64,000 nucleotides of DNA from Arenibacter latericius DSM 15913 (GTDB lineage Bacteria; Bacteroidota; Bacteroidia; Flavobacteriales; Flavobacteriaceae), in the NCBI RefSeq assembly GCF_000424985.1, contig NZ_AUKX01000003.1, positions 1-64,000 of the forward strand, written 5' to 3'. The translations under genes and the position numbers were made by a program. Numbering within the stretch: the stretch's first letter is position 1; each line of letters begins with the position of its first letter. This document shows positions 18,729 through 21,098 of the stretch, in pieces. The notes under the pieces are model-generated. The model had not been told where the DNA came from and made no database searches. It saw nothing but the letters and a program-made list of their open reading frames with translations.

Positions 18729-19140
18729 CTTTCACTATTTAACGGATTTTCAGATAAGCGATGAAACCGAGTACACCGATTGGATAGATAGAATAATAAC
18801 TTCTGAGAACGGGGTACAAGGTGAACTTGATTTTATTTTTTGCGATGACGAATATCTACTAAAAATAAATCAAGATTTTTTACAACACGACACCTTTACA
18901 GATATAATCACTTTCCCATATGGGGACGATCAAAATATCGCTGGAGATATTTTTATTTCTGTTGATCGTGTTCGCGAAAATGCGAAGATATTTAAAGTAG
19001 AATTTGAGACTGAAATGCGTCGAGTTATATCCCATGGCATTCTTCATATGTTAGGTTTTGGCGATAAAACCGACCAAGAATCGGAATTGATGAGAGAAAA
19101 GGAAAACGAAAAATTAAAAATGTTCCACGTGGAACACTAG
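18721..19140 (+). CDS. ybeY: Endoribonuclease YbeY (rRNA maturation)
   Basis: The 139-residue protein has the YbeY metal site HGILHMLGFGD near residue 102. The usual third histidine (HGxLHxxGxxH) is an aspartate here, as I recall for Bacteroidota members, so activity is still expected. The upstream strand-turn FTDIITFPY and AGDIFIS are also typical. YbeY acts in 16S rRNA 3' end processing and ribosome quality control. The start overlaps the DUF4175 stop; mnmG begins 6 bases after the stop. The final residues MFHVEH are encoded by a parS-type palindrome (19121-19136), so the C-terminal tail is shaped by a DNA site rather than by enzyme function. Confidence 0.95.
   Translation: MINFHYLTDFQISDETEYTDWIDRIITSENGVQGELDFIFCDDEYLLKINQDFLQHDTFTDIITFPYGDDQNIAGDIFISVDRVRENAKIFKVEFETEMRRVISHGILHMLGFGDKTDQESELMREKENEKLKMFHVEH
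19121..19136. promoter_or_regulatory. parS-type ParB binding site inside the 3' end of ybeY
   Basis: TGTTCCACGTGGAACA is a perfect 16-bp palindrome of the chromosomal parS class (general form TGTTnCACGTGnAACA). It lies in the last six codons of ybeY. A second identical copy lies 1,950 bases further on. ParB family proteins load on such sites to organise and segregate the origin region. No parA or parB gene is in the window. Confidence 0.8.
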
Positions 19141-19146
19141 AAGATT

Positions 19147-21015
19147 ATGTTTGATAAAGTATACGATGTAATAGTAGTAGGAGGTGGACACGCTGGCGCT
19201 GAAGCTGCGGCAGCTGCAGCTAATCTAGGTTCTAAAACCTTATTAGTAACCATGAGCTTACAGAATATAGCACAGATGTCTTGCAATCCGGCAATGGGCG
19301 GAATTGCAAAAGGACAAATTCTGAGAGAAATTGATGCCTTGGGAGGGTATAGCGGAATCGTAACCGACAAAACTGCTATTCAATTTAAGATGCTCAATAA
19401 AAGTAAGGGACCTGCCATGTGGAGTCCTAGAGCGCAAAGCGACAGAATGCGCTTCGCAGAGGAATGGAGATTAGCCTTAGAAAACACTACCAATGTAGAT
19501 TTCTACCAGGAAATGGTCAGTGGCTTATTAATAGAAGGCAACAAAATAGTAGGTGTAAAAACTACTATGGGATTAGAAATAAAATCTAAATCTGTAGTCT
19601 TAACCAATGGAACTTTTCTCAATGGATTAATCCACATAGGAGATAAACAAATGGGCGGTGGCAGATCTGGAGAGAAGGCTTCAACCGGAATAACAGAACA
19701 ACTAGTTGCTTTAGGTTTTGATAGCGGTCGAATGAAAACTGGTACCCCTCCAAGAGTTGATGGAAGATCATTAGATTATTCAGTAATGATACCACAACCC
19801 GGAGATTTAAATCCAGAAACCTTTTCCTATTTAGATACAAAACCGCTTACTACTCAAAGGGATTGTCACATGACTCACACCAGTGCTATTGTACATGATC
19901 TACTTAGAGAAGGATTCGATAGGTCACCCATGTTTAATGGAAGAATTAAAAGTATTGGTCCTAGATATTGTCCATCTATAGAAGACAAAATAAATAGATT
20001 TTCAGACAAAGATAGCCACCAACTTTTTGTAGAACCCGAGGGTTGGAATACGGTAGAGGTATATGTAAACGGATTCTCTACTTCCCTTCCAGAAGATGTA
20101 CAATTTAAAGCACTACGATCCGTTAAAGGTTTTGAAAAAGTTAAATTCTTTAGACCAGGATACGCTATTGAATACGATTATTTTCCACCTACTCAATTAA
20201 AGCACACCTTAGAAACTAAGTTAATAGATAACTTATATTTCGCAGGCCAAATTAATGGTACAACAGGATATGAAGAGGCAGCTTCTCAAGGTTTAATAGC
20301 AGGAATAAATGCTCACTTAAAAATCAATGAAAAGGATCCATTTATACTAAAGAGAGATGAAGCATATATCGGTGTACTTATAGATGACTTAATCACTAAA
20401 GGAACAGAAGAACCATATAGAATGTTTACATCTAGAGCAGAATATAGAACGCTTCTACGACAAGATAATGCGGATCTAAGACTTACACCGAAAAGTTTCG
20501 ACATAGGTTTAGCTTCTAAAGAAAGAATGGAAAGAATGGAATTAAAAGAAAAACAATCTAACAACTTCATTCAATTTTTTAAAGAAACCAGTTTTATTCC
20601 TGAGGAGGTAAATCCAATTTTAGATCAATTAAATTCCTCCTTAGTTAAACAACCAGGGAAAATGTTTAAAGTTTTTTCTAGACCTAAAGTAACCATGGAA
20701 CACATGAAAAAATTAGAAATAGTTTCCTCTTATATTGAAGAAAATAATTTAGATAGGGAAGTACTAGAACAAACAGAAATACAGGTTAAATATTCAGGGT
20801 ATATTGCTAAGGAAAAAAACAACGCCGATAAACTTCAACGTTTAGAGAATATTAAAATTCCTGAGAATTTCGATTACAGCAAGATTAAATCCCTTTCTTT
20901 TGAAGCAAGAGAAAAACTAAAATCAATTAAACCCGTAACCATTTCTCAAGCATCAAGAATAAGCGGAGTTTCTCCAAGCGATATAAGTGTCCTTTTAGTT
21001 TATATGGGCAGATAG
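19147..21015 (+). CDS. mnmG: tRNA uridine-5-carboxymethylaminomethyl modification enzyme MnmG (GidA)
   Basis: With MnmE this FAD enzyme installs the cmnm5 group on the wobble uridine of certain tRNAs. The 622-residue length is normal. The N-terminal FAD-binding motif VVGGGHAGAEAA is at residues ~10-21, and the signature CNPAMGGIAKGQ follows at ~46. MGGGRSGE, TGTPPRVDGR and YDYFPPTQL are also family-typical, and the C-terminal MnmE/tRNA-binding helical domain ends SGVSPSDISVLLVYMGR. It sits 6 bases after ybeY in the same operon and ends 43 bases before an unusual terminator with a parS core. mnmG is often near the origin in bacteria, in line with the candidate origin 16 kb to the right. Confidence 0.97.
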   Translation: MFDKVYDVIVVGGGHAGAEAAAAAANLGSKTLLVTMSLQNIAQMSCNPAMGGIAKGQILREIDALGGYSGIVTDKTAIQFKMLNKSKGPAMWSPRAQSDRMRFAEEWRLALENTTNVDFYQEMVSGLLIEGNKIVGVKTTMGLEIKSKSVVLTNGTFLNGLIHIGDKQMGGGRSGEKASTGITEQLVALGFDSGRMKTGTPPRVDGRSLDYSVMIPQPGDLNPETFSYLDTKPLTTQRDCHMTHTSAIVHDLLREGFDRSPMFNGRIKSIGPRYCPSIEDKINRFSDKDSHQLFVEPEGWNTVEVYVNGFSTSLPEDVQFKALRSVKGFEKVKFFRPGYAIEYDYFPPTQLKHTLETKLIDNLYFAGQINGTTGYEEAASQGLIAGINAHLKINEKDPFILKRDEAYIGVLIDDLITKGTEEPYRMFTSRAEYRTLLRQDNADLRLTPKSFDIGLASKERMERMELKEKQSNNFIQFFKETSFIPEEVNPILDQLNSSLVKQPGKMFKVFSRPKVTMEHMKKLEIVSSYIEENNLDREVLEQTEIQVKYSGYIAKEKNNADKLQRLENIKIPENFDYSKIKSLSFEAREKLKSIKPVTISQASRISGVSPSDISVLLVYMGR

Positions 21016-21058
21016 CCTAAATAAAAGGCAACTAAAGCCTTAAAACTGAATAAATAAG

Positions 21059-21098
21059 TAAAAAAGCAGATGTTCCACGTGGAACATCTGCTTTTTTA
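21059..21098 (+). terminator. mnmG terminator hairpin whose core is a perfect parS site
   Basis: Forty bases form one perfect palindrome: six A, GCAGA, then TGTTCCACGTGGAACA (21071-21086), then TCTGC and six T. As RNA it is a long GC-containing stem with a T-run, a textbook intrinsic terminator for mnmG. As DNA its centre is the same 16-mer as the site in ybeY. Confidence 0.88.
21071..21086. promoter_or_regulatory. parS-type ParB binding site in the mnmG terminator
   Basis: This is the second perfect copy of TGTTCCACGTGGAACA, 56 bases downstream of the mnmG stop. The symmetric 40-base context is explained by its use as a terminator stem. Confidence 0.8.

Follow-up and report, generated by a model that had tools for sequence, protein, structure and literature searches.

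A probable parS centromere flanking mnmG in the Flavobacteriaceae bacterium Arenibacter latericius, apparently detached from parAB and dnaA

The stretch of DNA analyzed here (henceforth the window) comprises the first 64,000 nucleotides of contig NZ_AUKX01000003.1 of Arenibacter latericius DSM 15913 (assembly GCF_000424985.1), and the element in question is a 16-bp palindrome, TGTTCCACGTGGAACA, which is present in it as two exact and identical copies, one before and one after the gene mnmG, also known as gidA (Table 1). A preliminary description made from the window had reported the two copies, their absence from the rest of the window and their placement around mnmG, and had proposed that they are parS sites of the type bound by ParB (Spo0J), situated in a centromere-like region near the replication origin. 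The two copies and the gene between them were recovered as described, and no further match was found in the window even with up to three mismatches (0.04 expected by chance; none of 100 shuffles reached two). The bracketing itself can be refined: the upstream copy (site 1) lies over the 3'-terminal codons of ybeY, and the downstream copy (site 2), which starts 56 bases after the last base of the mnmG stop codon, sits in the middle of a perfect palindrome of 40 bp. The genome-wide scan with mismatches that had been suggested as a check was run over all 4,478,801 bases (104 contigs), and revealed no third copy at 0-2 mismatches in the whole 4.48 Mb genome. At three mismatches 10 more places were recovered, and these are at noise level, because the pattern read backwards gives 16 at the same threshold. 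Given that base composition predicts only 0.0005 exact copies per genome, these scans, together with the shuffles, reject a chance origin of the sites. They also reject copies scattered round the chromosome, an outcome that had been named beforehand as fatal to the parS proposal. What is seen is a small cluster, two copies 1950 bp apart, as is typical of chromosomal parS sites.

Table 1. Features at the mnmG locus, with positions in the window
Feature	Positions	Strand	Remarks
ybeY (ribosomal RNA maturation ribonuclease)	18721..19140	+	TIGR00043, PF02130; C-terminal tail MFHVEH written by the predicted parS
Predicted parS site 1	19121..19136	none	TGTTCCACGTGGAACA; dual-coded, within the 3' end of ybeY
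mnmG/gidA	19147..21015	+	TIGR00136, 844 bits; gene bracketed by both sites
Perfect palindrome around site 2	21059..21098	none	40 bp; A-run/T-run arms; bidirectional terminator-like hairpin
Predicted parS site 2	21071..21086	none	TGTTCCACGTGGAACA; spacer 3' of mnmG

The genome encodes a single match to the ParB family (E = 1.6e-49), with an N-terminal ParB_N domain, a HTH_ParB domain and a C-terminal dimerization domain, ParB_C (PF02195, PF17762 and PF23552). Comparison with solved ParB/Spo0J chains likewise gave a best E-value of 1.6e-49, and the protein contains the string GERRFR, which we take to be the motif for binding cytidine triphosphate (CTP). The parB gene lies directly downstream of a gene for a ParA-type ATPase of the AAA_31 family with the signature KGGVGKTT, thus supplying the ParA partner, and the open reading frames next after parB presumably encode a DUF5683-type protein, DapB and LepB. 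In the Pseudomonas form of parS the variable positions of the palindrome are occupied by C and G. With respect to the consensus of the Spo0J/ParB class, TGTTTCACGTGAAACA, as used in PMC10197239, TGTTCCACGTGGAACA shows two mismatches; it is a palindrome of the parS class. The residues of the A. latericius ParB at the parS contact positions, numbered as in Caulobacter by an ungapped offset from the GKxR motif, are Q162, G170, K171, K172, R173, N178, G201 and R204. According to Jalal et al. 2020 (PMC7383237), Q162, G170, K171, S172, N178 and R204 are contacts common to ParB and its relative Noc, with the parS contacts R173 and G201 being replaced by Q173 and R201 in Noc. The sole difference among the shared contacts is thus a K at position 172 in place of S, and by its contact residues the protein is predicted to be a ParB of the parS-reading type.

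The association of the sites with mnmG is conserved at several phylogenetic depths. All 18 genomes of the genus (A. latericius and 17 others) have exactly two copies, 1901-1961 bp apart, and 32 of 40 relatives overall have a match with at most one mismatch. Among 19 relatives that were fetched because they had a match (MnmG 62-92% identical) the core is present on both sides of mnmG in 17, only downstream in one (L054) and only upstream in another (L055). A set of 80 named loci carrying mnmG, the best of 590 that were confirmed and hence mostly from Flavobacteria, has its best matches in Flavobacteriaceae, with Arenibacter on top at 85%. The core occurs within 1.2 kb upstream of mnmG in 77 of these 80 loci, within 1.5 kb downstream in 70 and on both sides in 67; in none does it occur inside mnmG or elsewhere in the fetched flanks (up to 4 kb). 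Among 118 Bacteroidota genomes, each at least 95% complete, the exact 14-bp core GTTYCACGTGRAAC is found in 111, versus 6 for the backwards control. Among 29 genomes that each represent another family and all have the core somewhere, so that they test where the site lies and not whether it exists, 26 show it no more than about 530 bp from mnmG, 10 of these on both sides and none inside the gene. Fifteen genomes lacked a match in the scans of relatives or of the phylum, of which 14 were examined (G028 was omitted, its sites having been found in the phylum scan); leaving aside two without a full mnmG, in 10 of the remaining 12 a site with at most one mismatch is found no further than 300 bp from the gene. 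ParB is present in all 13 phylum genomes tested for it (three of them from the order of the window), including seven without the exact core. Thus, the parS-class assignment of the preliminary description is supported by the ParA and single ParB, by the parS-type contact residues and by the occurrence of the site beside mnmG throughout the phylum.

Some lineages show variations on this arrangement. Four Flavobacterium loci (L186, L187, L188 and L196) have 4-7 parS-like cores upstream of mnmG, mostly 37-92 bp apart. In two further loci, one of them from a Kordia metagenome-assembled genome (L183; the other being L202), the same variant with one mismatch, TGTTCCACATGGAACA, occurs twice upstream of mnmG and YbeY ends in FHMEQ, which hints that the preferred parS sequence has shifted in these lineages. 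Blattabacterium, a reduced endosymbiont of the group, is an exception to the mnmG rule: it is reported to have no dnaA, gidA or parA, and to have its skew-defined origin in dapB (PMC2768785).

Site 1 is at once DNA element and coding sequence. Direct reading of the final codons of ybeY, ATG TTC CAC GTG GAA CAC TAG, gives MFHVEH and the stop, and this coding sequence, with the site in it, stops 6 bases ahead of mnmG. Over nine window genes, including mnmG, TTC accounts for 21% of Phe, CAC for 29% of His, GTG for 10% of Val and GAA for 74% of Glu codons. Given these frequencies, such a choice for the FHVE peptide is improbable unless the DNA itself matters. Across 87 loci (the window, six relatives and the 80 named loci), ybeY was found in 84: the upstream site lies inside its open reading frame in 47 and after its stop codon in 34, and no exact upstream core is present in three; in the last three loci ybeY was not found. 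An FHV(E/K) tail frame is seen in 43 of the 47 loci with the site inside ybeY, and of the other four, the one from Wenyingzhuangia arises artefactually from a site further away. Where the site follows the stop codon the C-terminus of YbeY consists of unrelated residues. Since the site is kept both inside ybeY and after its stop, selection acts on the DNA, with the peptide following from it. The conserved C-terminus of YbeY can thereby be accounted for as a DNA constraint.

The 40-bp palindrome around site 2 raises the alternative that the palindromes are RNA-level elements, acting in the ybeY-mnmG operon as intrinsic terminators or attenuators, and not a protein-binding centromere. This palindrome has a T-run, and as RNA it is predicted to fold with -26.1 kcal/mol versus -6.2 for shuffles (z = -8.9). 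Site 1 is likewise listed among terminator-like elements, with 8 pairs on the minus strand. Arms extending at least 6 bp beyond the 16-mer are found at 6 of 77 downstream sites, in unrelated sequences, whereas 1000 shuffles gave 0.19 on average and never more than 3, and hence base-paired arms look to have been selected in some lineages. However, the other 71 downstream sites and all 83 upstream sites lack such arms and the 14-bp core is kept nonetheless, a purely terminator role being thereby rejected. Moreover, site 1 is embedded in a coding sequence immediately before mnmG, and terminators would have no need of an identical core across the phylum. We therefore consider the RNA-element explanation very improbable, and read the 40-bp palindrome as a bidirectional terminator that has grown around site 2. 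An operator function, with a transcription factor binding the sites to control expression of ybeY or mnmG, as might be suggested by the bracketing of one gene by two symmetric palindromes, a typical form of operators, is extremely improbable, given the site 3' of the gene, the Flavobacterium arrays of up to seven upstream sites, the parS-class sequence and the parS-type residues of the ParB encoded in the same genome.

Proximity to the replication origin was assessed in four single-contig relatives, G003, G026, G037 and G140, with genomes of 4.69, 3.07, 2.84 and 4.13 Mb. Here the proposal of an origin-proximal location is supported by GC skew in all four, although the sites are not near dnaA, which lies 1.58, 1.15, 1.40 and 1.59 Mb, respectively, from parS; an origin beside dnaA is thus rejected for these relatives. 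Two-segment fits to third-position and raw GC skew, each sampled in 20 stretches of 20 kb per genome, bracket the origin-type switch in G003 at 1.53-1.76 Mb (third-position) and 1.29-1.53 Mb (raw), with parS at 1.58 Mb, and in G026 at 1.46-1.61 Mb and 1.31-1.46 Mb, with parS at 1.44 Mb. In the other two both skews give the same bracket, namely 0.64-0.78 Mb in G037 (parS at 0.75 Mb) and 1.50-1.70 Mb in G140 (parS at 1.59 Mb), the sampling limiting resolution to 142 kb and 200 kb, respectively. By at least one of the two measures the bracket contains parS in all four genomes, and only 0-1 of 300 permutations fit as well in G003, G026 and G037. Contiguous 20-kb bins place the change in G003 within a mixed zone from 1.536 to 1.596 Mb, inside which parS lies; in G026 they place it at 1.470 Mb, with parS some 32 kb away. 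The minimum of the gene-wise cumulative skew, which was obtained with hand-set strand corrections, falls at 1.540 Mb in G003 (~39 kb from parS) and at 1.459-1.466 Mb in G026 (~21-28 kb). Thus, GC skew supports an origin near the sites, and not at them, in these relatives: all four show the proximity, although the signal is weak in one, and in two it is resolved down to tens of kb. The window by itself has a gene-wise skew minimum at 34.4-36.6 kb, which in 64 kb devoid of outer context constitutes no evidence. The dnaA gene of G037 is situated close to the terminus inferred from skew, roughly across the chromosome from parS. The separation of dnaA from mnmG is not a uniform picture, as at least two of 13 genomes, relatives at the level of class and phylum (G041 and G067), have dnaA less than 30 kb from mnmG, and a third (G042) perhaps does so across contig ends.

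The same skew pattern could be taken to mean that the sites are part of oriC itself and are bound by an initiator in place of ParB. In line with this, the locus coincides with the skew switch or is close to it, and two species descriptions in Flavobacteriaceae place oriC at or adjacent to mnmG by Ori-Finder and GC skew, with dnaA not fitting the skew in one of them (PMC11278836, PMC12843772). Further, the densest cluster of loose DnaA-box patterns in G026 (three per 400 bp, the maximum observed, none of them canonical) is about 4 kb from parS. However, no such cluster is present near parS in G003, and a search with six DnaA-box patterns in 11,367 nucleotides of the spacer following mnmG found none, a test of little power with about 0.2-1.5 expected. 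In the window there are at most two loose boxes per 400 bp, one such pair, with one canonical box, being located at about 5.1-5.5 kb, 14 kb from site 1. Given that the core is of the parS class and that the genome has a matching ParB, initiator-bound sites appear exceedingly unlikely.

We therefore return to the proposed ParB-bound centromere, whose surroundings depart from those of the better-studied systems. Most of the biology of ParABS comes from Proteobacteria, Firmicutes and Actinobacteria. The present sites resemble chromosomal parS of the Spo0J/ParB class in being 16-bp palindromes with the same CACGTG core, in the presence of ParA and ParB in the genome, in their origin-proximal location in the relatives measured and in their occurrence as few copies within 2 kb. 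Unlike parS sites beside parAB, they flank mnmG: parB and parS are on different contigs in A. latericius (C5 and C3), and in both genomes that were compared parB is far removed from parS (0.95 Mb in G140 and 1.17 Mb in G155), so that the location of parAB within tens of kb of parS, a common and not a defining trait of ParABS, does not apply here. A further departure is the distance of dnaA in the single-contig Flavobacteriaceae examined. Within the phylum, the closest parallel is in PMC10197239, where a consensus search tolerating two mismatches identified parS sites in 12 gut bacteria, Bacteroides caecimuris and Muribaculum intestinale among them; the latter two belong to the phylum and their sites to the same class, and the same account holds that the origin need not be at dnaA. 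Neither mnmG nor the paired arrangement, both features of the sites described here, is mentioned in the available portion of that text. Among the matches listed in a literature search, no title or abstract opening concerned ParB-parS work in a Bacteroidota species; the Livny 2007 survey was outside this comparison, and priority for parS sites in Bacteroidota is not claimed.

The condensin Smc-ScpAB was not recovered either. The A. latericius genome shows three weak partial matches to Smc, all below cut-off, and no ScpA was found in it by a search that recovered ScpA in 9 of 14 controls; the pair that ParB-parS would load is hence not in evidence. Across the order, none of 59 genomes has an Smc at E <= 1e-20, versus 11 of 14 controls, in a scan that scored at most nine candidates per genome, included eight genomes of 0.6 Mb or less and did not search for complexes of the MukB/MksB type. 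A total absence of condensin is thus not claimed. Comparably, parS was found together with no known condensin in two Bacteroidetes species (PMC10197239).

Taken together, the two sites are very probably, as judged from sequence, the chromosomal parS centromere of a Flavobacteriaceae bacterium, located at mnmG near the origin and detached from parAB and dnaA. By analogy with the ParABS family, ParB dimers would load at each 16-bp site with CTP and then close into clamps that would spread over mnmG and the neighboring DNA, making mnmG the heart of a ParB-covered zone. Nucleoid-bound ParA would then move the ParB complex such that newly replicated origin regions separate first. Because parAB and dnaA are far away in the relatives measured and neither Smc nor ScpA was found, parS might function by itself as a centromere close to the origin, without loading canonical Smc-ScpAB. 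In many bacteria gidA/mnmG is part of an origin-proximal gid-par cluster, and the site may have remained beside mnmG close to the origin as parAB and dnaA relocated. We incline slightly towards a still broader proposal, that Flavobacteriales possess a minimal centromere fixed at mnmG, divorced from parAB and dnaA, which works without Smc-ScpAB and marks the true origin, and which in about half of the sampled loci is written into the tail of YbeY (FHVE), a peptide that would owe its existence solely to the centromere function of the DNA. The sequence class as such is already known; what is of interest is that the sites flank mnmG through the phylum, that one of them doubles as ybeY coding sequence and that no Smc was detected in this setting. 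Such a locus, sequence-exact and tied to one gene through much of the phylum, could serve as an origin-region marker for draft Bacteroidota genomes in which dnaA can mislead, and offers a natural test of the role of ParB-parS where no Smc is found.

Several observations weigh against this interpretation. With regard to the origin, the assembly of A. latericius is itself in 104 contigs and proximity is read from the four relatives only. In G140, 23 of 300 permutations were as good as the fit by raw skew and 5 of 300 by third-position skew. The third-position switch in G026 is 20-35 kb off the sites, and the raw-skew bracket in G003 ends about 54 kb before them. In G037 the skew is weak, its switch was not placed by the fine bins, and the gene-wise minimum, at 0.824 Mb, is ~73 kb from parS and at the edge of the stretch read. 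Of the published descriptions, PMC11278836 has a figure legend that swaps oriC and ter relative to its text. With regard to the distribution of the sites, 7 of the 118 genomes lack the exact core though all seven have ParB, three of the 29 families (f19, f30 and f44) show no core in the fetched mnmG flank, and two of the 12 no-match genomes with full mnmG (G128 and G039, the latter of 0.3 Mb) have no site near the gene at one mismatch or fewer. Finally, the top NCBIfam score of the ParB protein is to the Noc model TIGR04285, under its cut-off (235 versus 315 bits), the general ParB model being matched over its own cut-off. The system does resemble Noc and the Noc-binding sites (NBS) of Firmicutes in the related protein family and the palindromic sites; unlike Noc, the A. 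latericius protein has R173 and G201 in place of Q173 and R201 and is the only ParB-family match in its genome, and an identity as Noc is rejected on these residues.

Two other regions of the window contain genes of note. A secreted protein encoded at 23891-26245 has three near-identical repeats, presumably Ig/PKD-like, separated by TTPPTTPP linkers, and what we take to be a C-terminus of the type IX secretion kind. At 27384-28853 a gene for a carboxymuconolactone-decarboxylase-like protein is followed by one for a radical SAM protein, a pair that is presumably of the arsenosugar type.

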